From Sorghum bicolor (lineage: Eukaryota > Streptophyta > Magnoliopsida > Poales > Poaceae), in assembly GCF_000003195.3 (NCBI RefSeq), contig NC_012879.2:39452565-39516564 (forward strand): DNA of 64,000 nt, written 5' to 3'. The position numbers and the translations under genes were made by a program. Shown in pieces: positions 1 through 50,631 of this stretch; positions within the stretch are counted from its first letter, which is position 1, and every line of letters starts with the position of its first letter. A model generated the notes under the pieces. That model saw nothing but the letters and a program-made list of their open reading frames with translations, ran no database searches and was not told the DNA's origin.

Positions 1-3000
1 TTCTCTTTGATGTGGAAAATACCCTTGTCTGTTTTCTGACCTTCAATGACTTGACTCTCGAGCGAACAACTAAGTTGTATGTGACATAAGACTTCAGGAT
101 GCATGAGGTTAAAACCATCTTCAAACAACGGTTGAACCACCTGATAGTGCGGTTTACGACTCAAAGCGTCTTCTACTACATTAGCTTTGCCTGGATGATA
201 GTGAACTTCCAGATCATAGTCCTTGATTAGCTCTAACCACCGTCGTTGCCTCATATTCAGCTCGGACTGAGTGAAGATGTACTTCAAGCTCTTATGATCG
301 GTATAGATATGACACTTATTTCCCAGCAAATAGTGTCTCCAAATCTTCAAAGCGTGCACTACTGCTGCTAACTCAAGGTCGTGAGTTGGGTAGTTGACTT
401 CGTGCTTTCTCAACTGTCATGAAGCATAAGCTATCACTCTGCCATCTTGCATCAACACACACCCCAAGCCACTTTTCGACGCGTCGCAAAACACATCAAA
501 AGGCTTCTCGATATTGGGTTGCGCCAGAATGGGAGCAGTGGTTAGCAACTTTCGCAAGGTGCGGAAGGCTAGCTCACACCCCTCCGTCCAGACAAACTTA
601 TGATCCTTTTGTAACAAACTGGTCATTGGCTTAGCAATCTTGGAGAAGTCAGGTATGAAACGACGATAATACCCGGCCAGACCAAGAAAACTTCTAACTT
701 CTGAGACAGAAGTTGGTGCCTTCCAGTCCATGACTTCCTGCACTTTTGACGGATCCACAACAATCCCTTCTTTAGATAGAATGTGCCCCAGGAATGGAAC
801 TTTCTTCAACCAGAACTCACACTTGCTGAACTTGGCATATAACTGATGCTCTCGTAATCGTGTTAACACGATTCTCAGATGCTCGGCGTGATCTTGCTCA
901 TTTTCTGAATAAACCAGAATATCATCGATAAACACCACAACAAACTTATCTAATTCTGGCATAAAGACTGAATTCATCAGATACATAAAGTATGCAGCAT
1001 TTGTCAACCCAAAGGACATGACAAGATACTCATACAACCCATATCTGGTGGAAAAAGCAGTCTTCGGTTTATCCTGCGGACGAATCTTGATTTGGTGATA
1101 CCCAGACCTCAAATCTATCTTGGAAAACACTTTTGCCTTGGACAACTGATCAAACAAGATATCAATCCTTGGCAAAGGATACTTATTTTTGATGGTCACT
1201 ACATTTAGCGGACGATAGTCCACGCACATGCGCAAAGACTGATCCTTCTTTTTCACGAACAACGCTGGACAACCCCATTCTGATGAACTTGGCCGGATGA
1301 ACCCTTTATCCAGTAACTCCTTTAGTTGATTCTTCAACTCAGCAAGTTCGTTTGGTGGCATCCGGTACGGCCTTCTAGATATTGCTGTTGTACCTAGTAT
1401 CAACTCGATTGCAAACTCTACTTCCCTATCCGGAGGAAGTCCTGGCAATTCCTCGGGAAAAACATCATGGAACTCACATACCACGGGTATGTGTTCTAGT
1501 GGAACCACCTGTACTGCACACGAAAGACTGGCGAAGTCTAACCGTCGGGGTAGCTTGACCTGAAGCACACCCTTCCCTTGCGGGTCTCTGAGGGAAAGAG
1601 TTCTATTCCCGGCATCTATAACCGCGCCCCAGTCAGTCATCTTTTTCATTCCAATGATGACATCCAAAACCAGCCCTAGCATGACCACAAGGTTTACGCG
1701 AAACCTCCGGCCACTGATATCCAAGGTAACTCCTGTTACTGTTTTATTAGTCAACACATCAGCTCCGGCTGAGCTGATGTGATAGCCATAACCCAACTCA
1801 GTAACTGGCTGGTCATGCTTTTGTGCAAATGCTTGGCTCATGAATGAATGCGATGATCCAGAATCAAACAAAACAACTGCAAGATGTTGGTTGACAGGAA
1901 ACATACCAGCTGTTACTGGTTCTCCTTCCGGGATCTCCTCGATTGAGGTATGGTGCACACGAGCTGGATAGGTTGGCTGCTGCCTCTTGGGGTAGGTACA
2001 TTCCTTAGCAAAGTGCCCCATCTTGTGGCAGTTATAGCATGGACCCTTGGGCGCATTGTTGGCGGCAGGTGCCGCAGCTTGAATTGCCTTTGGCTTGGCA
2101 GGAGCTATTGCCACCTTGTACGGCTTCTACTGCGTTGGATGCCCGGTGTTCCTTCTCTGTGGCGGTCGGAACCTAGCACCTGGGGCAGGAGGACGATACT
2201 GTTGTCGCCCCGCCACTGGTGCCATAGGCTGGGATGATCCGGCTTCAAAAGCCCTCTTACGTGACTTGGATGCACTGTAGTTGTTGTTATTGTTCTCCTG
2301 GGTCAGGCAGTCATTGATATAGGCATTGAAGGTAGCCCTAGCTCCTGTACCCATGGTCTTTAGCATCTTTGGATTCAATCCTCTCTAGAAACTAGCAATC
2401 TTCTTGGCCTCCGTGTTCACAAACTCAGGGGCGTAGCGAGCGAGATTGTTGAAAGCATGTAGATACTCCTTCACAGATTTCGTCCCCTGGGACAGCCACA
2501 TGAATTCCCCAACCTTCATTTCAACCACACCCGGAGGAATGTAATTTCCCCAGAAAGCGGTGGTGAAGCGGTTCCAGGTGATTGGGGTCACCTCTGGGTA
2601 GGTAGTACGATGATGGGACCACCAAATTCCAACGGGTCCTTGCAACTGATGTGCCGCATACTCAGCCTTGAGTTCTTCTGTCATCTGAAGAAGACGAAAC
2701 TTCTTCTCCATAGTGTTAATCCACTCATCAGCTTCAAGCGGTTCCAAAGCCTCCTTGAAGACTGGTGGCTTGGTATCCATGAAGTCCTTGAAAGAGCTGT
2801 ACTGATTGACTTCACCGCCGCCCTGGTTATCCCCACGACGGGTGTTGTCAGCTATGTTACGCAGAGCCTCTTCCATGTTGCGCTGCATCTGTTCCATGTT
2901 GCGTTGGCTCCCCAAAAACTGCGCGAAAAACACGTCCGCAGTGTACGGAGGGGGCGGTGGTGGTGGTGTTGGTGCTCTGTCCTCATCCCGTTGAGCCCCA

Positions 3001-3062
3001 CCTCTGGACGTACCTGCTCCAAGACCCGGTTTGCTGTTACCCCCGCCACGTGTTTGCACCAT
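1..3062 (-). pseudogene. gag-pol: gag-protease-RT-RNase H polyprotein of the RIRE3-like element, disrupted and cut by the window edge
   Basis: One reading frame runs from the ATG at 3062 (MVQTRGGGN) to the window start. In order it shows: gag capsid (about 2400-2900; 'WWSHHR', 'FWGNYIPP'), a CX2CX4HX4C zinc knuckle (1998-2039), the aspartic protease motif FDSGSS (catalytic Asp near 1865), RT with the active site FIDD (921-932) and the 'GLTNA' and '[11 protein letters not shown]' motifs, then RNase H ([10 protein letters not shown], and TDHKSLKY below position 416). The frame is broken by three in-frame stops, TAG near 2383, TAG near 2125 and TGA near 417. Each can be explained by a single C-to-T change. 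After the TGA the frame continues with QLRKHE, so the family's usual YASRQL has lost its Arg codon. The protein would have been cleaved into capsid, protease, RT and integrase acting in cytoplasmic virus-like particles. This copy cannot make a full product without readthrough. Confidence 0.9.
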
Positions 3063-3384: not shown

Positions 3385-4426
3385 CTACTCGCTATGGTCA
3401 CTGTCCATGCCGGAGCCATCCTCGTCCTCATCTCCACTAGCAGCTGCTCCTATCTCGGGATCCTCATCCATCTCGTCCTCAGAGTCTAGCTCAGCTGCTC
3501 CAGGCAGGTGGTGAGGGTGGAGCTAGTTATGCAGCTGGTGGATCTCCTCATGCAAGTTCTCATTGTACTCCTCAGCATTAGCTAGCTGCTGCTCTAGCTC
3601 CAGCTGTCGGGCCCTCAGAGTGTCCTCCTCGTGCCAGGCTTCATTCCTCTGACCAAGCACATGGACTAGCATGCGCTCGCAGTTCCTGTGAGCAGTAGTC
3701 ACCCCATCTCTCTGCTCTTGCACTGCAAGCAGGTCCTGGCTCAGCTCACTATTCTGCTGGACTGCCTGGTCTCTCTCGGGTCACGTGGGCCAACTCCGCC
3801 TGTAGCCTCTCAACCTCAGAGTCGAACTCAGGCTACAACTGGCGCTTCTCATCCTGGACGGTGAGAAGAGACCCGGACAAGCGACCCAAACAACGCTCTA
3901 GGGCTCCATAGGTCTTCATCAAAGCGTACATGGCACTCATAGCTGCGCTGTCACTGTGCTGGTCCTCATCCGCACTCCTCTCTAGAGCGTTCACCTCGGA
4001 CTGATCCCACACCGAAGTGTAGGGGTCACCCCGGGGAAACACTCCAGCGAAGGCGTGGGCCAGCTCCTGTGGAAACCTCTCCATGAGGTCCCTCAGAACT
4101 GCGAAAGCTGCCCTGCTGGCACCGTGGAAAGGCATGGCACCTCGGGACTCATACACCTAGCCGCCCCAGGCGGGGTCACCTCCACTAGTAGGAACAGTTG
4201 CCTCGATCCCCACCAGGGTCTCGTCACCAAGCGGCTCCTTATCCCAATAGTAGCGAGGCTCCCTTCCTTCACGATACCCCATCGAGCTGAGCACTCTCCA
4301 AAGCAAAGTGGGCATCCCAAACTCCTCCAGGAACTTGCTCTTATGTCGCGAGCTCCTAGCTGCCAACAGATGGCGAGGGGCCCGCCCACCAGTGGACTTG
4401 CGAGCGGTGAGCCTAGTGCGCGCCAT
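3385..4426 (-). pseudogene. ORF upstream of gag with a histone H3 tail-like N-terminus, coiled coil and acidic tail
   Basis: The chosen start is the ATG at 4426, because from there the first 26 residues after Met match the histone H3 tail at 17 positions (A-R-T, then TARKSTGG, then APR, then LA). K9, S10 and T11 are kept, while K4, K14, K18, K23 and K27 are R, R, H, R and H. A second ATG lies three codons upstream (4435). A central domain of about 170 residues follows (WDKEPLGDE, VWDQSEVNALER), which I do not recognise. Next is a Q/E-rich heptad region (3530-3830), probably a coiled coil, and then an Asp/Glu/Ser-rich tail ending at the stop at 3385-3387. In-frame TAGs at 4157, 3833 and about 3523, and a one-base frameshift near 3778, break this copy. 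Function unknown. The position fits the extra ORF reported for RIRE3-type elements. Confidence 0.7.
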
Positions 4427-5235
4427 CTGCTGCAAATGGAATACCTTGGGTAAGAGCGAGGATTATCTTTAATTATTTTATTTAGAATTGGGACAGATTA
4501 AATTAAGGGGGAAAGTGAGCAATGATATGAAATGAACATGATGCATGCACGAAGTTACGATCCCACAAACTTAAGGAACACAAGTTAGCACTAAGCGATA
4601 TATGCGGTGGCACACAGCGTTCTCTCATAACGTAACTAGCGCTCTAAGCGAGAACGTGGTTAGCATACCTGTAGAAAACTCATTTCAGCCCACCCACAGT
4701 ATGCTCATGCAGAACAAGAATTTTAAAACTATACACCCCACATACACAGACACCCGTCCATGCATATGATGTGTCACTACCCACATCATCGCCCTAATGA
4801 CGGCATCGCCTCTCAGGACGTTATTCCCAACATGCGGTACTGTTCCCAAAACACACCAAAACATGTGTGCATGACACAGCACCTAACAACACTCCCCTAG
4901 ACCGGCAGTGTATCCGATCATGCTCTCACAGCTCCCACTTACCGCGGCGTAGAGGAAAAATGGATCCATACATTACCACTCAAATGAATGGTACTCATAC
5001 CATTGCACGCCGTATGAGCGACGAAATAGAAATATGATGCATTAACCCCCAAGTCAGTACTTAACTAGCCACCTTAGAGTCCTTAACTGGGCATAAAGGA
5101 TATGACCATGGCACACTAGATAGTTTTCCAAAACTTAGTTTAACACCTTGATCATTATTAATTAATAAAATCTTTTATTAAACCGGTTTAGATTTAGTTT
5201 AGAACGTACTTATGAACAGTAACTCGCTAAACCTT
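4427..5235 (-). other. 5' untranslated leader of the RIRE3-like element
   Basis: About 800 bases between the primer-binding site and the upstream ORF. No coding frame or RNA gene is recognised. It presumably holds packaging signals, but none can be identified. Confidence 0.5.
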
Positions 5236-5247
5236 GCTCCGATGCCA
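5236..5247 (-). other. primer-binding site (initiator tRNA-Met type)
   Basis: The minus strand reads TGGCATCGGAGC two bases inside the LTR end. This matches the usual plant iMet primer site TGGTATCAGAGC at 10 of 12 positions. It fixes the orientation of the element (minus) and the inner boundary of the LTR. Confidence 0.8.
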
Positions 5248-5249
5248 TC

Positions 5250-8200
5250 TGTAACAGAACCGACCAAATTATAAGAGATTAAGCCTAACAGTGACCATTT
5301 GCATAGTCCAACCATCGAGCTTAAGCCCATATAAACCCGGTAGTCTGTGAAACTCGAAGGATTTCAAACCCAATATCGTAGAGACAGCCAAGATCGTAAT
5401 AAGTTTAGCGGTCGCCATCCACAGATACATCCAGATTACAACATTCATAAAATACATCGGAGTTCTTAAAATTATTACAAACCAAGTTCTTCAAGTAGCG
5501 GAAGCTTCATAGTTCGAAATACAACACACACACTTAGTCTGATACAGTACCATAGTTCGTTCATTCCCACAAAAGCAGAAGAGAAGATGGAGTGACCATC
5601 GCCCTTGGTCTAGTCATCACCCATGGCTGGGTACAGACAGAGGATGCAATAACCATAGTACATTTGACCATCTGCAAAACAACATGGGAGTAGAACCCTA
5701 AGTACGAGAATGTACTCAGCTAGACTTACCCGTCATAAACTTAAAATAAAGACTCTTCAAGGATCATGAAGGCTATATAGTGGGGTAGCTGACAACCATT
5801 TTGCATAACCGCAGGATTTTATTACCATAACCTACATAAATCTTTGTTCTTGTAATTTGCTCAAGTTGAAAGTATCATTACCTATTATCTAGGTTTGCAC
5901 CTGCAATATTATAAGCAAGTATAGTGATATGATAGTACCTCATCATAGCATTCTTAAAACCATTTATCATTATAACCCAAGTGTTCCATAGTCCTTACTA
6001 CGAGGACGAAGCTCATGTCAAGTGCTCACTATCCAGGAGCGATGGCGATTCGAATCGATTTCTAACCAGTTGGCGAGTTTATTCCCCACACAAACCACAC
6101 TCACTGATCAAGTGAGCTACAGATCACCGTATTGCACTATCCAGGACCAATTCGCGGGTTCGACAGGCACCGCCCGTACCCGAGGACCGTTCCGGCGACC
6201 GAGGTATCCAAGGTATACCAAGGTTGCGCGTCGCGCCCTCGTCGTTCTCCTCAACCATCACCAATACAGAGCGTACATCGGGCCGATTCCGGCCCGGATA
6301 GTGCTCAGGCTTCGCGGTCGGAACGACTTATCCTTTCAGCTAAATGTGGGGCATGCGTTCAACATGACAAGAGGGCCGTCAACGATCGGTCCTTAATCGA
6401 CATAGGCAGGGGCACTATGGTCAACCCACCATAAGACCCTGCCAGGTCTCCAATTCCATTCCGTACTTGGTTATTCTTTTCCCCAAAGCAACCACTGCTT
6501 AATCAGGCAGGTATCCACCTATATCTCGCAGGTGACAGTGAATCACCCTTCTACCAGACTAAGAAAGCTAAGCATAGACTCCACGCCTATCTACATAGGA
6601 CAAGGTAGATAAACGAGTAGGGATAACAAGGAGTACATACGCATCAATGGTATCAAGCTATTCCTATCACTTAAATGCAATATAGTAGAACAAGCATATT
6701 ATATCATGTAAGTTAGCGAGAATAGGGAGACTTAGAATGCTCCGGGGCTTGCCTTTCTCAAACGTGCTGGGCCGGTGATCCGGACACTCCTGTAGCTCCT
6801 CTCCGGGTTCCGGTGCTTCCGGAGGTTCCTGCTCCTGAATCTCCTCTGGCCCCTCGGGTCCCACCTCGTTCTCCTACGAGCCTGTATGATGCATGTGTGC
6901 TCATGAGTGGAGTGCGAGATGCCCGAGTGGATGCTTCTATGAGAAGGTACCAAATGATTATGACATGATGCATAGGTGATTCACTTGGTCATGCTCATTA
7001 CAAGGTAGTCAACATCATCCAAGAACAGACAATTGAATTAAATATCTATTGCATTCTCTTCTACCAATTGTTTTCAAGTGTAACCAGCAACCCACATGAT
7101 GCTTCAAAAATACACCAAACCCCTTTTTATTCTATTTAACCCATATATAACAATTCATAATTTCCTTTATTCATTTCTAAGCCCATCAAAATTTGCATGC
7201 AATTCTGTTCATCTATAATTTCCACAAAAATTACAGGAGACTTCCAGTCAAGCATAAAGTCTACTATAAATTTTTCATAATTTTTGGATTCTCATTTTGA
7301 GCTACAAAAGTCACAAGATTATTACATAAAGGCAAGTACAATTACTCTACTGTGGTATAAGTGTCAAACAACAGATTTCATATTTTTACAATTGGTCTAA
7401 TATTATAGGAAATATCCACAAAAATTTCTATACTGATTGCATGATCCAAATCTTTATTAAAAATCATAAACCACTGCCATGCAAGCATTTAAATCATTAT
7501 AATTCTTATATACACCAAATAATTTGTACCAATATTTTCCCAGTGAGTTAACATACATGCAGAGCCAACAAATCAAGTTTCACATTTTTCTGAGCCATAT
7601 TTTAATTACTATGCATTTTCTAAGTTTAGCAAAAGCATGGATTAATTATTTCTGTCCAGAAAAATGTTCAAACATGACATACAATTACATCAAACTGTAG
7701 ATCTGAAAAATATAGAGCACACCAAAATTTATTTCATCAAATTTGGAGCTGTAGAACTCAAGATATGGATTTTACAAGTTTTAAATCGATTTCTAGAAAA
7801 CCTTTTCTGAAAATCAATTCGAAAACAGGATCAAAAACGCTAAAGACACCTAGTTCTACACCCAACGCGGTCCCCCTGTGACTGACAGTGGGCCTCTGAC
7901 CCCACTGGTCAGCGAGACTGAGAGGGAGAGCACCTCCGACGAGCAGATCTCGCCGGCTGTGAGGTTCCCGGCCACGGAGTGAGCACCATCATGCTCCCCG
8001 TAGCGAGGCGCACCCAGCGGTACCCTCGGGTTGGCCGGAGGATGGCCGGAGCACCTCCGACGAGCATGCATGGCAGCACGGCGGCACTGCTCGCCGTGGC
8101 CAGGCTGCTCCGGTGCGGTAGAACATGCGCAAGGGCTCCTCCGAGCTTCCCCGTCGCACTACGGATCTAACGCGCCAAGAAGCAAGCGAAACGGGACAGA

Positions 8201-9177
8201 AACGAGCGAGGTTCGACGCGGCGGAGCTCTCCGGCGAGGTCGGAGCAACTCCGACGAGCGATTCACGGCGTTCGACGGGCTCTCACCTCAGTAGAGCGTT
8301 CGCAGGAGCTTACCGCGACGACGGCGAGTGCGCTAGTGGTTTCGGCATCGAGATTGGGGCACTGGAGTGGCCGGCGGTGAGCAGCGGAGCTGCTCCGGCG
8401 ATGGCGCTGCGGCGGGGCTCCTACGGCTGCGGTTGCGCTCGCGAGTGGAGGGAGGAGGGAGAGAGGCGCGGGCGACACAGCGAATGGAGTGGCCTGGGAG
8501 CCCGGGCCGGCGTCTCGACCAGGTGAAGCCGGTCGGCCGCGGCGCGCTCCTCGCCGGCGTACGGCCGCCACGTGGCCGACGCTGGCTGGGACGAGGCGGG
8601 CGTCCGCGCGCGGGACAGAGGGGGAGGGGGAGGCAGGCCGGGCCGCTGTCTGGGCCGAAAGGGAGGCGGGGTTGGCTCAGCAGCGCCTGCCCCTTTTGCA
8701 TTTTTTTTTGAATTTCTTTTCTCAAATTCTTTTCTAAATTCATTTGGACCAATTTAAAATCATTTTCACCTCTTTCTCCCTAAAGCAAAGTTGTTCCAAA
8801 ACAAAAACCCTACAACTTTGTTTTAATAAGCAATGCCAAATTCCAAGTAGAATTTGAATTACCAATTAAAACTAGTTCTATGTTTTCAAATAAATTCATT
8901 TTGGGGATTTTGTATAAATTCCATTCCTCAAATTCTATTGCTCCAAAAATTGCACAAAAATATTTTTAAACCTTCTTACACATAAATCAACCTAGTTTGA
9001 ATATTCCACAATTTTAGAAGCAAGCATCATATTTTTAACATGTTTAAAGCACATGTAATAAAACACATAAAATCATATTTTGGGATGAATGGCATGCTCA
9101 TGATGCTATGCTTGATGAGAATGCTTATGCATTGCTTTGGTAAGGCTAAGTGCATGCTTAACACCTAGGGTGTTACA
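5250..9177 (-). repeat. 5' LTR of the RIRE3-like element (3.9 kb)
   Basis: The plus strand starts TGTAACAGAACC and ends CCTAGGGTGTTACA, so the element strand reads TGTAACACCC...CTGTTACA with TG..CA ends. At 3,928 bases it is unusually long. It holds AT-rich flanks and a strongly GC-rich core at about 7850-8690. Frames in the core are open on both strands but look like composition effects rather than genes. There is no second copy in the window for dating. Confidence 0.85.
7850..8690. promoter_or_regulatory. GC/CpG-rich core of the RIRE3-like LTR
   Basis: A sharply bounded GC-rich block between AT-rich stretches (7020-7850 and 8700-9150). It may be the regulatory or transcription-start part of the LTR, or an acquired fragment. 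I find no clear TATA box or domain. Open frames occur on both strands as expected from GC content. Confidence 0.35.
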
Positions 9178-10145
9178 GACATGGAAACATAAATACAAGG
9201 GATGCAATGCCACTCACCAACAACCTTCAGATTGAGCTCTTTGATGTCTGGGGAATAGACTACATGGGTCCATTTCCTCCATCAAAGAAGTGTGAGTACA
9301 TCTTGGTGGCAGTAGACTATGTCTCCCAGTGGGTAGAGGCATTACCTTGCAAGCATGCCGACAACGTCAGTTCAAAGAGGATGTTTGAAGAAATTATATT
9401 TCCAAGATTTGGAGTCCCCAGAGTAGTGATAAGTGATGGAGGAGCACACTTCATCGACAAACGCTTCAAGCAATATCTATCAAAACATGGAATCCATCAC
9501 AACGTCGCTACCCCCTATCATCCTCAAACAAGTGGCCAAGCAGAGACTTCCAACAAATAAATCAAGAATATTCTTCAGAAGACAGTAAGTGAAATGGGAA
9601 CAGCGTGGAAAGACAAGTTACCCAATGCACTCTGGGCATACCGGACAGCATACAAGACCCCAATTGGAATGTCCCCATACCAATTGGTGTACGGGAAGAC
9701 TTGCCATCTACCTGTTGAACTAGAGTTCAAAGCACATTGGGCCATAAAGAGATGTAATATGGACCTAGATGTTGCTGGAGATTATAGAAGAATGCAACTA
9801 TCAGAATTGGAAAAATGGCGAGAGAAAGCATATCACAATTCAAAGATCTACAAAGAAAGAGTCAAAAGGTGGCATGACAAGAGAATCAAGAAGGAGTTCA
9901 CACCCGGAGATAAGGTATTACTTTTTAATTCTAGGGTGAAGCTTTTCGGGCATGAAAAACTCCGGAGCAAATGGGAAGGACCATTCAAGGTAATTAATTC
10001 GTCATCCCACGGAGCTATCATACTTCAAAATGACGAAGGTACGTTATTCAAGGTAAATGGTCAACGTCTTAAATTATTTTTAGAGCCCAATAAAGAATTA
10101 GAAGAAATAGACGTAGTCCATTTTTACCTTCCCATGGAGAACTAG
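9178..10145 (+). pseudogene. pol: Athila integrase (C-terminal part of pol), truncated
   Basis: The frame is open from the RIRE3 junction and carries the integrase core: [11 protein letters not shown] (first Asp), VISDGGAHF (second Asp) and HPQTSGQAE (catalytic Glu, kept here). A basic C-terminal domain follows ([10 protein letters not shown], then [13 protein letters not shown] GPF motif), ending LPMEN and TAG. The integrase would insert element cDNA into nuclear DNA. One in-frame TAA near 9558 replaces CAA of the other Athila copy. The N-terminal zinc-binding part of the integrase, RT and gag are missing here because of the RIRE3-like insertion. Confidence 0.9.
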
Positions 10146-10522: not shown

Positions 10523-11150
10523 ATGTCCGAGAAGTACCACGATGATTGGGAAGTCGTCCCCTTCAACCACAACATGGAGCCTGTGGAAGACCCCGATGCC
10601 CGTGCTCTCGTCCCGGCCAACACAGTGCGACAGCTAGAAGCCATGCCATTACGCCAACGCAGCTCCGCCCAATCCTATCATGCTCAACCAGTTCTCACCG
10701 CAGCGGCACAACCCTCTCCTCAAGGGATCATCATCCAAGATGAAGACCACCATCAAGGTGCCAACCGGCATGAGGATCCTTCCACCTAGACCCAATGAGA
10801 GGGTCGTTGGAGTCAAGACCAACCGGAGCGGCGAGATCAGCAGTATTCGCTACACTACGGAGGAGGAAAGGCCTTACTTTGAAGGGATTAGAGCAGCCAA
10901 AGTCCGTTTCATCCCTCCAAAGGCAGCCCCGAAGCACGCTCTCAATGCTTTTGAGACACCTCCCAAGCGTCGCAAGACTATAATGGATATTGATGAGGAC
11001 GTTCGCAGACTAGACAGAATTATCATAGACCTCCAGTCCTCGATTAATTCCCTCACTAGGCAGCTCCCTAACCACAACACCATTATACTAGGCCTTAGGT
11101 AGGATCTTGCCAGTGCCAACAAGAAGATTAGGGAATTAGAGCGCCGCTAA
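10523..11150 (+). pseudogene. Athila 3' ORF (env position), frameshifted
   Basis: Starts ATG at 10523 (MSEKYHDDWEVVPF). It is the homologue of the intact 209-residue ORF at 46840-47469. A small indel near 10715 shifts the frame, and a TAG near 11101 replaces CAG of the other copy. The end is at TAA 11148-11150. The visible parts are a Pro/Gln-rich N-terminal third, a basic stretch (PKRRKT) that could be a nuclear localisation signal, and a C-terminal heptad region, probably a coiled coil. No signal peptide or membrane segment is seen, so an envelope role is not supported despite the env-like position. Function unknown. Confidence 0.75.
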
Positions 11151-28535: not shown

Positions 28536-30491
28536 ATGGCACAAAAGACCCTACAAGAATTCTCTGCTCCAAGTCTTGACAACATTCCAACTGGTCCAAG
28601 ATTTGTAGTAGAAGAAGGAATACCTGAGTTTGAGCTCAAGTCAAGCCTCATCAATTTGGTGCAAGCTACACAATTCAGTGGAAAGGCACATGAAGATGCT
28701 AGTGCACACTTGCAGAATTTCTTAGAGATTGGAAGCACAATCCACATCAACGGAGTTGACAAAGACGTCATACTGCTTCGCCTTTTTCCATTCTCACTAG
28801 AAGGAAAAGCGAGGAAGTGGTTCTACACTCATCAAGATAACATCGACAACTGGACGAACTTGTCAGATGCCTTTCTATCGAAGTTTTTCCCTATAGGCAA
28901 AACAACTGCCTTAAGAGGAACTATTGTCAGTTTCCAACAGCAGAAGACAGAAGCCATTTCAGAAGCATGGGAGCATTTTCAAGGATACATATCAGATTGT
29001 CCTCACCATGGAATGGCCACATGGTTGCTTATGCAGACCTTCTACCATGGATTAACCCAGAAGACTCGTGAGTGCCTAGATGCATCTGCTAAAGGATCAT
29101 TCTTGGAGCTTACATTTGGAAAAGCAGAGATACTTTTGGATAAGATAGCAGAAAACCAAAGCTGGTTCCAAGATAAAGCTCAACAATGTCATCAAACTGA
29201 AGAAATACCAGAAGAAGTAAATGCATTATCAACTAAGATGGAAAATTTGCTCCATTGGATTGACCAGAGGGCCAAGTTTAAAGAAGATCAAAGGGCTATT
29301 GAGACAGCATACAAATATCAACCAACTTCGAGTCAACCCAATAGCAAAGGTATGAATTCAGGTAATACTTTCAAGCAACTTTCATTAAAAGAGATAATTG
29401 CTCAACAAACCAAAATTAATGACGAAGTTAAACAAAGGCTAGATACAAATGAATCATCTCTAAAAGATATACACAATAAAATGGATTTTCTACTAACTGC
29501 CTTTGATGAGCAAAACACTCTTAATAAAATGGTAGAGCTTAAATTAATAAAGATAGCTGCTGCACTGCCTGTTGCTACTAACCTTGAGCAGGTAAAGAAT
29601 ATAACTACTAGAGGAGGCAAAGCTACCAGAGATCCCCCATACCCAAAAGAGAATCAAAGAACATCAGCACCAGTGCAACCAGCAGTGATAGAAGAAGAAA
29701 GCCCAGTTGAAGCAGAAGATCTACTACAACCACCAAGAACTAGAGAAATGAGGAAAGATTTTTACGACACCAACTATTTGCCATTTCCCAGAAGAAACAG
29801 AGGACTGCAGTCGGATGAGCAGTTTGGTAAGTTTGTAGAGGTCATTCAGAAATTATACGTCAACATAACTCTGCTCGATGCCATACAGGTACCTACATAT
29901 GCAAAGTACATCAGAGATATTCTTAACAAGAAGAGACCACTGCCCACCACTGAGGTTATCAAGCTGACAGAAGAATGTAGTGCGGCCATCCTCAACAAAC
30001 CACCAAAGAAGAAGGAAGATCTAGGATATCCCACTATTGACTGCTCGATCGGAAACCAACACTTCAACAATGCACTTTGTGATCTCGGAGCAAGTGTCAG
30101 TGTGATGCCAGCATCAGCCTACAAAAGGCTTGAGCATGCGACCCTAGAACCAACATCAATGTGCCTACAATTAGCGGATCAATCGGTTCGAGACCCTCTG
30201 GGCATCGCCGAGAACATTCCAGTCAAGATCAGAGATTTCCTTGTGCCAGTAGACTTCGTAGTATTGGACATGAGTCCTGACTCAAAAGTGTCCATCATCC
30301 TTGGAAGGCCATTTCTGAGCACTGCCAATGCCCACATTGATGTCGGGAAAGGAGAAATCAAGTTCAACACAAACGGTCAAGAAGAACACATGACATTCAA
30401 ACCCAGACCAGAGAGAGACTCTACAGTGAAGGAAGTTCATGAAGAACCATTGGAGACACCGTCTCCGGAGGAAGGTAACTCAGAAGATTAA
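28536..30491 (+). CDS. gag-pro: gag-aspartic protease of element D (651 aa, intact)
   Basis: Starts ATG GCA CAA (MAQKTLQEF). Residues about 45-230 are an Athila-type capsid domain (FSGKAHEDASAHLQNF, RLFPFSLEGKARKW, LSKFFP, AWEHFQGYI). A long Gln/Lys/Glu-rich linker with coiled-coil character follows (about 265-350). The C-terminal third is a retropepsin-like domain, with CDLGASVSVMP (Asp at residue 516) as the catalytic loop and IILGRPFLST near 588 as the second conserved block. The family's usual form continues into RT, but here the protein stops after an acidic tail. No zinc knuckle is seen. It would form particles and might process itself. The ORF-following sequence carries a G-rich tract ACTTGGGGGA (30508-30517). 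Confidence 0.9.
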   Translation: MAQKTLQEFSAPSLDNIPTGPRFVVEEGIPEFELKSSLINLVQATQFSGKAHEDASAHLQNFLEIGSTIHINGVDKDVILLRLFPFSLEGKARKWFYTHQDNIDNWTNLSDAFLSKFFPIGKTTALRGTIVSFQQQKTEAISEAWEHFQGYISDCPHHGMATWLLMQTFYHGLTQKTRECLDASAKGSFLELTFGKAEILLDKIAENQSWFQDKAQQCHQTEEIPEEVNALSTKMENLLHWIDQRAKFKEDQRAIETAYKYQPTSSQPNSKGMNSGNTFKQLSLKEIIAQQTKINDEVKQRLDTNESSLKDIHNKMDFLLTAFDEQNTLNKMVELKLIKIAAALPVATNLEQVKNITTRGGKATRDPPYPKENQRTSAPVQPAVIEEESPVEAEDLLQPPRTREMRKDFYDTNYLPFPRRNRGLQSDEQFGKFVEVIQKLYVNITLLDAIQVPTYAKYIRDILNKKRPLPTTEVIKLTEECSAAILNKPPKKKEDLGYPTIDCSIGNQHFNNALCDLGASVSVMPASAYKRLEHATLEPTSMCLQLADQSVRDPLGIAENIPVKIRDFLVPVDFVVLDMSPDSKVSIILGRPFLSTANAHIDVGKGEIKFNTNGQEEHMTFKPRPERDSTVKEVHEEPLETPSPEEGNSED

Positions 30492-31370: not shown

Positions 31371-32927
31371 ATGTTTAAGAAGGTGAAGAATGCAGGGAAG
31401 GCTCTCAAGAACATTGGTACAAGGAGTTCAGCCCGACACTCCTCACAGCCATCAGAGATGAGCGTCGACCCGACACCCACACAAGCTCCATCATCTTCAT
31501 CAGGTCAGCAAGTTAAGGTCCTTCTTAAGATAGGAGACCTTGGACTGAAGACCCGAAGAGAGAAAGAAGTCTATCAGCAACTGAAGAATAAAGATTTTAT
31601 TCACACCCCTACTATTGATCCAATCTTACTACAAGAAACAGGTGTGGACACTGAATTTGACTTAATTTTCCAAATGTTAGGTTGGACAAATTTTTGGAAT
31701 ATAACTGAGCTGGGTTCTCGTCTTCTCACCCTCGAATTTCTTTGCACTTTACAATACTATGAGGGGGGAATTGTTTTTCGAATGTTCAAACAGGAAATTA
31801 TGTTGTCTTGGAGAGAGCTGAGCGACCATCTTGGTTTCTCTTCAAGATGCATCCTGAACATTGACTCCGATTTACCCAATTTTGAGAGACACCAGTTTTG
31901 GAGAGAAATATCTAGAGATAATTTTTATAGTCAAGCCCGAACTAGTGACATGGAACACCCTACTCTTAGGATGTTCCACAAATGGCTTGGGTACAATCTT
32001 TTCTATCGTGATGATATTAGAAAAGTAAGAGTAGGAGATTTACAACTTTTATATGCTGCTATTAATAAAGTACCCACTTCACCTGTTACACTTTTAGTTT
32101 CACATTGGCTTAGTGTACCTAGTCTGCAGGGACCAGTAGGATGTACTTCACTTATCACTCGTTTAGCCTCTAATCTTCATTTACTAGAAAACTCATCGTT
32201 GGATTTCATAGAGGAGTTAAGAATTTATCATGGCTATGACACATTTAGACAAGCTCGGATGTTAAAGAAAGAGGGGAATGTAATGTATATGCTATATGAT
32301 GATAAAGGCAAGATTCGGTTACCTAACCCGAACCTTGGCCTATACGTTGTGCAAAATCTTTTGATTGAGATTGCAGCAACACCAGTGAACCAGAGAGCTC
32401 CACAGCGAGTGGCATCTGAAAGGGTGACCACTCACCGAGAATGCACCTGGTATGGAGCTGACCCTGGACCAGAAGAAGCAGCGCACCTGCATTATTGCGA
32501 TTACAACCCCCGAGTCCTTCGAGACCCATGGGTTCGTCATGCGCAACCACAAGAGCCAATAGAGGAGACATGGCCGGAGAGCCAAGATCACCAGTGGACA
32601 AACCCGCCTTTCCATATGGGCAGGTACTCCACTGATCCATATGGAGCTTCAGGATCCAGACCTCCGCCCCAATTTGATGCAGGACGATACTCCGACGCCT
32701 CCTACGCTTGCACGAATGACTACTATCAAGAGGCCGGTGCTTTCTTCACTCGTACCGACAACACCCTCCTCGACATCCAGAACACGCAAGCAGAACATGA
32801 AAGACTCCTGGAAGAGCAACAAAAATGGAACCAGGACCATGCTGCTGCAGTACAAGAGCTGAGACAAGATACAACAACAATGAATGACAACATCACAACT
32901 ATGATGCGGTTCTGGAACATCGGGTAA
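31371..32927 (+). CDS. Athila ORF-1-like protein of element D (518 aa)
   Basis: The frame is open from ATG 31344, but I prefer ATG 31371 (MFKKVKNAGKALK), which directly follows the acceptor-like TTTGCAGG. After a basic Ser-rich N-terminus, residues about 60-320 form a folded domain with ELGSRLLTLEFLCTL, IVFRMFKQEIMLSWRELSDHLGF and HKWLGYNLFYR. This resembles the plant 'ATHILA ORF-1' family as I know it (moderate confidence). The C-terminal part is Pro/Tyr/Gln-rich, followed by a Glu/Gln-rich coiled-coil tail (LLEEQQKWNQDHAAAVQEL). No signal peptide or membrane segment is seen, so the env label often given to this position is not supported. It is followed directly by AGCTTGGGGGAG (32945-32956). 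Confidence 0.75.
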   Translation: MFKKVKNAGKALKNIGTRSSARHSSQPSEMSVDPTPTQAPSSSSGQQVKVLLKIGDLGLKTRREKEVYQQLKNKDFIHTPTIDPILLQETGVDTEFDLIFQMLGWTNFWNITELGSRLLTLEFLCTLQYYEGGIVFRMFKQEIMLSWRELSDHLGFSSRCILNIDSDLPNFERHQFWREISRDNFYSQARTSDMEHPTLRMFHKWLGYNLFYRDDIRKVRVGDLQLLYAAINKVPTSPVTLLVSHWLSVPSLQGPVGCTSLITRLASNLHLLENSSLDFIEELRIYHGYDTFRQARMLKKEGNVMYMLYDDKGKIRLPNPNLGLYVVQNLLIEIAATPVNQRAPQRVASERVTTHRECTWYGADPGPEEAAHLHYCDYNPRVLRDPWVRHAQPQEPIEETWPESQDHQWTNPPFHMGRYSTDPYGASGSRPPPQFDAGRYSDASYACTNDYYQEAGAFFTRTDNTLLDIQNTQAEHERLLEEQQKWNQDHAAAVQELRQDTTTMNDNITTMMRFWNIG

Positions 32928-46839: not shown

Positions 46840-47469
46840 TTAGCGGCGCTCTAATTCCTTGATCTTCTTGTTGGCACTGGCAAGATCCTGCCTAAGACCT
46901 AGTATAATGGTGTTATGGTTAGAGAGCTGCCTATTGAGGGAATTAATCGAGGACTGGAGGTCTATGATAACTCTGTCTAGTCTGCGAACGTCCTCATCAA
47001 TATCCATTATAGTCTTGCGACGTTTGGTAGGTGTCTCAAAAGCATTGAGAGCGTGCTTCGGGGCTGCCTTTCGATTGATGAAACGGACTTTGGCTGCTCT
47101 AATCCATTCGAAGTAAGGTCTTTCCTCCTCCACAGTGTAGCGAATACTGCTGATCTCGCTGCTCCGGTTGGTCTTGACTCCAACGACCCTCTCATTGGGT
47201 CTAGATGGAAGGATCCTTGTGCCGGTTGGCACCTTGATGGTGGTCTTCGTCTTGGATGATAATCCCTTTAGGAGTAGGGGTTGTGGCGGTGCGGTGAGAA
47301 CTGGTTGAGCATGGTAGGATTGGGCGGAGCTGCGTTGGCGTAATGGCATAGCTTCTAGCTGTCGCTCTGTGTTGGCCGGGACGAGAGCACGGGCATCGGG
47401 ATCTTCCACAGGCTCCATGTTGAGGTTGAAGGGGACGACTTCCCAATCATCGTGGTATTTCTCGGCCAT
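46840..47469 (-). CDS. Athila 3' ORF (209 aa, intact), function unknown
   Basis: Complete frame from ATG 47469 (MAEKYHDDWEVVPF) to TAA. The N-terminal 70 residues are Pro/Gln/Ala-rich. The middle has PNERVVGVKTNR and a basic PTKRRKT that may be a nuclear localisation signal. Residues about 155-209 form heptads (VRRLDRVIIDLQSSINSLN, then DLASANKKIKELE), probably a coiled coil. There is no signal peptide or membrane helix. It lies between pol and the 3' LTR behind its own TATA module. It is unrelated in sequence to ORF2 of element D, although both occupy the same place. Confidence 0.8.
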   Translation of the reverse strand: MAEKYHDDWEVVPFNLNMEPVEDPDARALVPANTERQLEAMPLRQRSSAQSYHAQPVLTAPPQPLLLKGLSSKTKTTIKVPTGTRILPSRPNERVVGVKTNRSSEISSIRYTVEEERPYFEWIRAAKVRFINRKAAPKHALNAFETPTKRRKTIMDIDEDVRRLDRVIIDLQSSINSLNRQLSNHNTIILGLRQDLASANKKIKELERR

Positions 47470-47847: not shown

Positions 47848-50631
47848 CTAATTCTCCATGGGAAGGTAAAAATGGACTACATCTATTTCTTCTAATTCTT
47901 TATTGGGTTCTAAAAATAATTTAAGACGTTGACCATTTACCTTGAATAACGTACCTTCGTCATTTTGAAGTGTGATAGCTCGGTGGGATGATAAATTAAT
48001 TACCTTGAATGGTCCTTCCCATTTGCTCCAGAGTTTTCCAGGCCCAAAAAGCTTCACCCTGGAATTAAAAAGTAATACCTTATCTCCGGGTGTGAACTCC
48101 TTCTTCTTGATTCTCTTGTCATGCCACCTTTTGACTGTTTCTTTGTAGATCTTTGAGTTGTGATATGCCTTCTCTCGCCATTCTTCCAATTCTGATAGTT
48201 GCATTCTTCTATAATCTCCAGCAACATCTAGGTCCATATTCCATCTCTATATGGCCCAGTGTGCTTTGAACTCTAGTTCAACGGGTAGATGACAAGTCTT
48301 CCCGTACAGCAATTGGTATGGAGACATTCCAATTGGGGTCTTGTATGCTGTCCGGTATGCGCAGAGTGCATCGGGTAACTTGTCTTTCCACGCCATTCCC
48401 ATTTCATTTACTGTCTTCTGAAGAATATTCTTGATTTGTTTGTTGGAAGTCTTTGCTTGGCCACTTGTTTGAGGATGATAGGGGGTAGCGACGTTGTGAC
48501 GGATTCCATGTTTTGATAGATATTGCTTGAAGAATTTGTCGATGAAGTGTGCTCCTCCATCACTTATCACTACTCTGGGGACTCCAAATCTTGGAAATAT
48601 AATTTCTTCAAACATCCTCTTTGAACTGATGTTGTCGGCATGCTTGCAAGGTAATGCCTCTACCCACTCGGAGACATAGTCAACTACCACCAAGATGTAC
48701 TCACACTTCTTTCATGGAGGAAATGGTCCCATGCAGTCTATTCCCCAGACATCAAAGAGCTCAATCTGAAGGTTGTTGGTGAGTGGCATTGCATCCCTTG
48801 TATTTAAGTTTCTGTGTCTTTGACATGGCCCACATCTTCTGATATATTGCTTCGTGTCTTCATACATTGTAGGCCAGTAGAATCCACACTGCCAGATCTT
48901 TGAATGTGTACGGAATGCTCCATAGTGACCTCCATATGGTGATGAATGACATCTGTCGATGATCTTCCATCCTTCCTTAGTGGTCACACACCTCCTGAGT
49001 AAGCCATCAGAGCATACTCGGAAGAGGTATGGCTCATCCCATATATGTGAACGACTTTCTTGAATAAGCTTCTTCTTATTTGCTCCTGGTGGTACATACC
49101 CTGAAACCATAAAATTAACAATATCTGCATACCAGGGGTCAGACCTGTTAATCCCGTAGAGCATGTCGTCCCGGAGTGAATCATTGATGGGGATTTCCTG
49201 TGGACTCTTAAAATACATTCTAGACAAGTGATCAGCAACAGACTTTTCTACTCCCTTTTTATCTTTTATTTCTAAGTCAAATTCTTGGAGTAATAAGATC
49301 CATCTAATCAGGCGAGGTTTAGCATCTTTTTTAGTGTGCAAATATTTTAGTGTAGCATGATCAGTGTAAACAATTATTTTAGCTCCAACTAAATAAGATC
49401 TAAATTTATCAATGGCAAAGACAACAGCCAGAAACTCTTTTTCGGTGGTTGCATAATTAAGTTGAGCTCCTATCAAAGTTTTACTAGCATAAGCAATTGC
49501 ATGATGCTTCTTATTTTTAGTTTGTCCCAATACTGCCCTCACAGCATAATCACTGGCATCACACATAATTTCAAAGGGCAATGACCAATCAGGGGGTTGA
49601 ATGATTGGTGCAGAGATGAGTGCTTTCTTTAATAAATTGAAAGATGTTAGACATGCATCAACAAATTCGAAAGGAGCATCCTTGGCTAGCAAAAGAGTAA
49701 GTGGTCTAGCAATGAATGAGAAATCTCTTATGAATCTACGATAAAAACCAGCATGGCCTAGAAAGCTTCGAATTCCTTTTATATTCACAGGTGGAGGTAG
49801 TTGTTTAATTACTTCAATTTTAGCTTTATCTACCTCAATACCTCTTTCAGACACTAGGTGTCCCAGCACTATTCCTTCTCTAACCATAAAATGACATTTT
49901 TCCCAATTAAGGACTAAGTGCTTTTCTTCAAATCTTTGCAAAACCTTGTCTAAGTTTTCAAGACAACTATCAAAAGTTTTTCCATAAATAGAGAAATCAT
50001 CCATGAAAACTTCCATAATCTCTTCAATCATATCAGAAAATATAGACATCATGCATCTTTGAAAAGAAGCTAGTGCATTACATAACCCAAAAGACATTCT
50101 ACGGTTAGCATAAGTTCCATATGGGCATGTAAAAGTGGTTTTGCTTTGATCATCGGGATGGATCAGGATCTGATGATACCCTGAATATCCATCTAAGAAA
50201 CAGAAGAACGAATGGTTTGCTAACCACTCTAGCATCTCATCTATGAAAGGTAAAGGAAAGTGATCCTTTCTCGTGGCTTTGTTTAGTTTTCTATAGTCTA
50301 TGCACATCCGCCATCCTGTGACGGTGCGTTGCGGAATTAGCTCGTTCGTTTCATTCATAATAACAGTCATGCCTCCCTTTTTAGGCACAACTTGCACCGG
50401 GCTTACCCACTCACTATGCGGCATAGGATATATAATCCCTGCATGCAGCAACTTTATAACTTCCTTTTTAACTACCTCTCTCATAGTGTTGTTAAGTCTA
50501 CGTTGGGGTTCTCGAGAAGGTGAAACATAAGGATCTGTTGGAATACGATGGGTACAAATCATAGGACTGATTCCTGTAAGATCTTGGAGTGAGTAGCCGA
50601 AAACTGAGTGATGTTTCTCAAGAATGGTCAT
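47848..50631 (-). pseudogene. pol: Athila RT-RNase H-integrase, interrupted
   Basis: In frame with the upstream gag-protease part. RT runs from about 50480, with [12 protein letters not shown], the active site [10 protein letters not shown] and [11 protein letters not shown]. RNase H follows ([27 protein letters not shown]). Integrase has the HHCC zinc motif ([10 protein letters not shown]... CGPCQRH), DVWGIDCMG and VISDGGAHF. The third catalytic residue is changed: GQAK here, GQAE in the copy at 9178. Stops: TGA near 48712 (TCA in the other copy) and TAG near 48247 (AAG in the other copy). It ends LPMEN, TAG. It would copy element RNA into DNA and integrate it. This copy cannot. Confidence 0.92.

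Follow-up and report, generated by a model that had tools for sequence, protein, structure and literature searches.

Retrosat2, RIRE3, RIRE8, FRetro3 and the Tekay elements of maize and sorghum carry an extra open reading frame (ORF), ORF0, upstream of gag, and the grass elements that bear it have long terminal repeats (LTRs) of over 3 kb. Published accounts of this 5' additional ORF (aORF) noted a double-stranded RNA-binding motif (DRBM)-like structure for the maize and sorghum proteins (template modeling (TM) values of 0.35-0.37) and a possible role in RNA silencing (PMC3485330, PMC11728184), and predicted that Tekay 5' aORF proteins are nuclear (PMC11728184). The Retrosat2 study predicted metabolic hydrolases for ORF0, described the element as dispersed, and called the effect of ORF0 on transposition unclear (PMC3485330). 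A review of LTR-retrotransposon host factors, in the portions available, covers aORFs only in general terms (PMC12786077). The word "histone" is absent from the main texts of three papers on these extra ORFs (PMC3485330, PMC11728184, PMC7264820), and among the titles and abstract openings listed in searches of an open-licence library, none described a histone H3 tail on a retrotransposon protein. Here we describe a Ty3 retrotransposon of Sorghum bicolor whose ORF0 begins with such a tail. The element lies in a 64,000-nt stretch (GCF_000003195.3, contig NC_012879.2, positions 39,452,565-39,516,564 of the forward strand), which we call the window.

An H3 tail at the start of ORF0

ORF0 opens on the minus strand with the ATG at 4426-4424, and its N-terminus, MARTRLTARKSTGGRAPRHLLAARSSR, is identical to H3 residues 1-26 at 17/26 positions in an ungapped register, with codon 27 ending at 4346. 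An open frame of 89 codons follows from that ATG, beginning MARTRLTARKSTGGRAPRHLLAARSSRHKSKFLEEFGMPTLLWRV. The original prediction, made from the letters alone, had placed an in-register H3 match upstream of gag, and the computed match bears it out, with TARKSTGG (H3 6-13) and APR (15-17) present exactly as claimed. As controls, we scored the 641 open stretches of 27 codons that start with ATG on both strands of the window, where the runner-up reached 6/26, and all 127,840 26-residue stretches in its six frames, where it reached 10/26. Against PDB sequences, phmmer with the 89-aa ORF recovered histone H3 (E 6.8e-5), as did a profile of the family (E 1.3e-8). Allowing a one-residue gap lets the KS at 28-29 of the window copy align to H3 K27-S28. 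ORF0 is an H3 tail mimic and not a histone: neither the two ORF0 pieces of the window nor 14 homologs (the majority incomplete) showed the histone fold domain (PF00125), and the modeled domain resembles a double-stranded RNA-binding domain (dsRBD), so a full histone or histone-fold protein was rejected.

The element runs from LTR through a primer-binding site (PBS)-like stretch, leader, ORF0 and gag to pol and exits at the window start; ORF0 is sense-oriented between the 5' LTR (9177-5250) and gag (from 3062). Its parts are:

5250..9177, minus strand: 5' LTR of 3928 bp, starting TGTAACACCC and ending TTCTGTTACA, read from the sequence
5236..5247, minus strand: PBS-like stretch TGGCATCGGAGC directly inside the LTR, read from the sequence
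4427..4436, minus strand: TTTGCAGCAG, a possible 3' splice site abutting the ORF0 ATG
3385..4426, minus strand: ORF0 (5' aORF) remnant, from tblastn alignments of nine homologs, with frames read separately
4346..4426, minus strand: N-terminus resembling the H3 tail (Met and H3 1-26)
4385..4423, minus strand: constrained tail core, H3 1-13 including K9, from rates per site, parsimony counts and pairwise identities
4067..4321 (approximate), minus strand: region homologous to the predicted dsRBD fold, with a stop inside it in the window copy, from AlphaFold2 models of homologs P0033 and P0081 and fold comparison
3520..3949 (approximate), minus strand: region homologous to a predicted long helix, from the AlphaFold2 model of P0081 (helix 160-264)
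3388..3489, minus strand: acidic C-terminus, from homolog P0148 (16 Asp/Glu and 0 Lys/Arg in the last 46 residues)
2385..3062, minus strand: gag (Retrotrans_gag PF03732, E 1.5e-16)
417..2114, minus strand: zinc knuckle, protease (RVP_2), reverse transcriptase and start of RNase H, the element running past the window start

The window copy of ORF0 is broken. Beyond the 89 codons, the remainder to about 3385 holds one more stop and one frameshift. P0148 aligned to 4315-3388 in two pieces, and the other eight homologs started at 4426-4435 and extended to 4025 to 3770.

Distribution of the tail in ORF0 homologs

Three protein searches gave 67, 409 and 92 matches, with 120 of the 409 listed in the second; the queries of the second and third were alignments that included the tail and may favor tail-bearing matches. 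The homologs were mostly proteins from metagenomic collections (ena, jgi and lgn sources). The third search also returned eight histone-domain proteins (P0170-P0177), which were left out of the residue counts together with P0165. We scored the tail in the 83/170 aligned rows that had at least 20/24 tail columns filled, the other 87/170 being unscorable. Subfamily representatives were chosen by eye and the subfamily of the window copy by a text pattern.

The searches found the tail in divergent subfamilies, so it is not confined to the window copy, and the idea that it is a private oddity of that copy was rejected. Scans of contigs for DNA of relatives confirmed none. Among the 83 rows, the initial Met was universal (83) and the first residues of H3 were mostly kept (A1 in 78, R2 in 74, T3 in 79), as were those around K9 (T6 in 76, A7 in 78, R8 in 75, S10 in 75, T11 in 70, G13 in 80). 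K9 itself was lysine in 83/83. Position 5 was divided between Q (38) and L (40), and position 4 was K in 55, R in 27 and W in 1. K14 was kept in 2/83 (R in 66) and K18 in 0/83 (H in 62), and position 23 was R in 65/82 rows. S10 was replaced by A, P, T or Y in 8/83 rows and R8 by H, C or W in 8/83. Relatives without the match or without ARKS, which the original prediction named as evidence against itself, did not appear in the scorable rows apart from these exceptions at S10 and R8 and the degenerate P0082.

Hand-picked representatives gave the same picture. A7 and K9 were kept in 16/16, and R2, T6 and R8 each in 15/16. In the 14 examined for lysines, K9 alone among the lysine columns was retained throughout (14/14), within TARK in 13 and IAWK in P0082. 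The further claim that the tail keeps only K9 stood for the subfamily of the window copy in strict register, where 20 of 23 rows had R at position 4, two had K and one had W, but failed for the family as a whole given the 55/83 rows with a lysine at position 4. Among the scored rows K9 is the invariant lysine; K4 generally persists in subfamilies other than that of the window copy, and K14, K18 and K23 have disappeared from nearly all rows.

In gapped alignment to H3, the 16 representatives kept 12 to 20 of residues 1-27. K14 survives in P0024 and P0082, T22 in P0024 and P0081, A24 in P0024, K23 in P0081, and K27 in P0081, P0149 and, gapped, the window copy. Because different subfamilies retain different rare H3 residues, out to position 27, the alignment suggests that one host H3 tail of about 27 residues or more was captured and then eroded, which fits better than convergence.

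Three homologs had unusual architectures. P0165 (245 residues, no Pfam match) contains four H3-tail-like segments, MARTKQTARKTSGGRAP, RRTKQTARKSTGGHAP, HPRQTARKSTGGGAP and RPRTKQTARKSTGGHAP, and reads as H3-tail mimics in tandem, with no ORF0 domain. P0178 has an H3 tail almost directly joined to coiled-coil-like sequence, without a dsRBD-like domain. P0141 and P0079 share a leader and most of the tail, whereas the domain after WRVL is very different; here ORF0 subfamilies apparently recombined, swapping the domain and keeping the H3 tail.

Constraint on the tail

Site rates were computed from 60 rows and 94 sites after dropping rows of <75 aa and P0147, P0153, P0168, P0169, P0076 and P0178. 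Mean relative rates were 0.53 for H3 1-13, 1.15 for 14-30 and 1.11 for the domain; the core differed from the domain at p 4e-4 and from 14-30 at p 0.0025. K9 was the second slowest of the 94 sites, behind Met. Parsimony counted 0 changes at K9, 8 at K4 and 11 at K14, with mean changes per site of 4.3 (1-13), 9.1 (14-30) and 7.3 (domain); the seven sites with zero change were M0, K9, L20, F31, L32, L45 and Y50. Across 66 pairs of 12 representatives, compared without gap columns and with fragments P0178, P0067 and P0049 left out, mean identity was 76% for 1-13, 41% for 14-30 and 48% for the domain (32-76%), and identity in H3 1-13 exceeded that of the domain in 62/66 pairs. Removing the short domain fragment of the window copy left 55 pairs with 75%, 41% and 47%, and the tail exceeded the domain in 51/55. 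Site rates, parsimony and pair identities thus agree that the tail evolves slowest in H3 1-13, a computed constraint at the protein level, and the tail was apparently kept by selection.

Two points weigh against the case for constraint. Within the subfamily of the window copy, K28 and K30 vary about as little as K9. An AAG lysine codon is also shielded from C-to-T type decay, the third-base G-to-A change being silent. We therefore set aside the invariance of K9 in decayed copies as weak proof of selection, and the claim of constraint rests on comparisons between subfamilies, since codon shielding and the equal invariance of those lysines weaken the evidence within them.

Domains behind the tail

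The tail is predicted to be disordered and joined to a domain of predicted dsRBD fold, a second module that the original prediction had overlooked. Both AlphaFold2 models (P0033 and P0081) gave an alpha-beta-beta-beta-alpha fold that matched solved dsRBDs. The P0081 model adds a long helix (residues 160-264) that we read as a probable coiled coil. Sequence methods did not recover the domain: Pfam profile scans, dsrm included, did not detect it in ORF0 homologs, and a search of PDB sequences with the domain alone gave a best E of 0.077. A viral fold library gave nothing at an E of 1e-3 or better.

In a canonical dsRBD that binds double-stranded RNA (dsRNA), the KKxAK lysines stand at the start of helix 2. 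The two leading lysine positions of that motif were K/R in 0/93 and 8/93 ORF0 rows. A canonical dsRNA-binding domain was therefore rejected: the predicted fold fits but the lysines do not. The ORF0 domain shows no detectable sequence similarity to the dsRBDs of DRB7.2 and DCL4, and it differs from them in lacking the KKxAK lysines and in being attached to an H3 tail. The earlier assignment of ORF0 as a hydrolase, from homology models of 2012, found no support in the fold comparison, which bears on it only indirectly.

The element and its surroundings

ORF0 fits the ORF0 of grass Retrosat2/RIRE3/RIRE8 (Tekay) elements by features rather than by alignment: where it lies, how long the LTR is and how the LTR begins at its 5' end. 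The LTR 5' end matches TGTCACACCC of RIRE8/Retrosat2 at 9/10 positions; the 3' end is a poorer fit, at 5/10 to GGGCGTGACA. These bounds were set from one LTR (the 3' LTR lies beyond the window) by its terminal TG..CA inverted ends and the adjoining TGGCATCGGAGC, which we take to resemble an initiator-Met tRNA PBS.

The element seems to be inserted in the pol region of another Ty3 element (flank 9178-10145, plus strand), and by eye that flank and an element at 48712-50631 (minus strand) share one protein stretch. Elsewhere in the window, an ORF at 31371-32927 (plus strand) matches ATHILA ORF-1 (PF03078, E 1.7e-11) and has a gag/protease ORF at 28536-30491 upstream. Two similar ORFs at 10680-11102 (plus strand) and 46840-47469 (minus strand) share TTIKVPTG...RILP, KRRKTIMDIDEDVRRLDR; the longer of them, the only one scanned, had no Pfam match.

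Proposed function and alternatives

We propose that a captured host H3 tail forms the exact N-terminus of a conserved Tekay-type accessory protein, ORF0, where selection would hold H3 1-13 around K9. Removal of Met would expose a start of A-R-T-(K/R), predicted to be disordered and centered on T-A-R-K9, as is bound by H3-tail enzymes and readers; ADCP1 is described as reading R2-K4-K9me2 and HP1-type chromodomains as reading Q5 to S10 (PMC6318295). The tail could then act as a decoy or handle for the readers and writers of the H3K9 tail, silencing of the element would be blunted or redirected, and the dsRBD-fold domain might reach host DRB/Dicer-type partners. What computation shows is the match, its spread over divergent subfamilies, the constraint on the protein and the predicted disorder and fold; that ORF0 is expressed, that its K9 is methylated and bound by readers, that the domain has partners and that the outcome is anti-silencing is inferred. 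Taken whole, with ORF0 imitating the H3 tail to K9-region writers and readers, weakening or redirecting H3K9-linked silencing, and engaging DRB/Dicer-type partners through its predicted domain, we give this proposal an even chance. A more specific form, to which we give slightly less than that, is that a whole lineage of plant retrotransposons keeps a captured host H3 tail under selection as a programmable decoy that can take K9 methylation, has lost the acetylatable K14, K18 and K23, and through an RNA interference (RNAi)-type dsRBD-fold domain lets one protein touch both the H3K9me and the small-RNA arms of silencing.

The main rival is targeting. On that view chromodomain readers, among them the chromodomain of the element's own integrase, would grasp the methylated tail, and integration complexes would thereby be anchored on H3K9me chromatin or gathered into groups. 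Sunflower Tekay groups with type II integrase chromodomains were reported to differ in insertion distribution with and without a 5' aORF (PMC11728184), and the tail core suits a chromodomain ligand except at Q5 in the lineage of the window copy. The integrase of the present element, however, lies beyond the window start. The sunflower aORF was described as having no sequence similarity to grass aORFs, the aORF-bearing sunflower group as inserting along chromosome arms rather than pericentromeres, and group II chromodomains reportedly have one aromatic pocket residue (PMC11728184); Retrosat2, moreover, was described as dispersed (PMC3485330). On this balance we consider targeting unlikely, though ahead of the other alternatives.

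Somewhat less probable still is a general basic tail for nuclear import or for RNA or DNA binding, derived from H3 by happenstance, with K9 kept for charge or structure. The tail is indeed basic, and nuclear location was predicted for Tekay 5' aORF proteins (PMC11728184). But a pure charge role would allow K/R exchange at K9 as it occurs at K4 (K 55, R 27), and K9 is never R (83/83 K), while the neutral residues T3, T6, A7 and G13 are mostly retained.

Constraint might instead act on RNA or DNA, through a splice acceptor, leader structure or packaging signal. Wherever a homolog extends upstream of the tail (17/17), Gln directly precedes Met, which would agree with a conserved CAG acceptor, and splicing is plausible because the leader (823 bases) holds 25 ATGs. 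A conserved splice acceptor before the ATG is thus possible, and the H3-like N-terminus would then open an exon. As the cause of conservation, however, nucleic-acid constraint has a poor chance of being right, since conservation tracks H3 1-13 and drops at 14-30, and residues farther upstream differ between homologs.

We think it very unlikely that the tail is a neutral relic of H3 capture whose similarity reflects common ancestry and mutational bias. Many retrieved sequences look fragmentary or decayed, and the shielding of AAG lysines favors such a relic; against it, the tail has held 76% identity between representatives whose domains average 48% (32-76%), and the rates of tail and domain differ at p 4e-4. 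Chance resemblance or convergence without H3 descent, for which nothing speaks except that short ARKS-type mimics do exist, is next to impossible: the window control (17/26 against a next best of 6) rules out a chance match, and the profile match to H3 (E 1.3e-8) and the different H3 residues held by scattered lineages contradict convergence as well.

Comparison with known systems

The H3-tail reading would supply the ORF0 of grass retrotransposons with a testable function. The ORF0 family also provides H3 tails in which K4, K14, K18 and K23 vary naturally while K9 stays the same, a resource for working out the requirements of plant K9 readers. If the reading is right, the element may be equipped with a decoy of its own for host transposon silencing, and a conserved, nearly complete H3 tail on a protein of a transposon would bring transposons into histone mimicry.

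NS1 of influenza A combines its mimic with a dsRNA-binding domain, a pairing of modules like that in ORF0. Its motif is a C-terminal ARSK, whereas ORF0 would present an N-terminal tail of about 27 residues, centered on K9, in a retrotransposon. The ARKS of SARS-CoV-2 ORF8 is isolated, not N-terminal, and without known extended H3 homology. Both proteins are described within the histone mimicry known in viruses, the NS1 of H3N2 strains as carrying a short H3-tail mimic recognized by host chromatin factors and ORF8 as carrying the ARKS motif of H3K9 (PMC10208167). Among plants, VANC of the Arabidopsis VANDAL elements is a transposon accessory protein that works against epigenetic silencing, as we propose for ORF0 (PMC5735166, PMC10398659, PMC12844716). 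VANC differs in belonging to a DNA transposon and in working by sequence-specific DNA binding and demethylation, and the accounts used mention no histone mimic in it. Viral histone mimicry and plant-transposon anti-silencing proteins were already known; what appears to be new is an H3 tail on the ORF0 of a retrotransposon.
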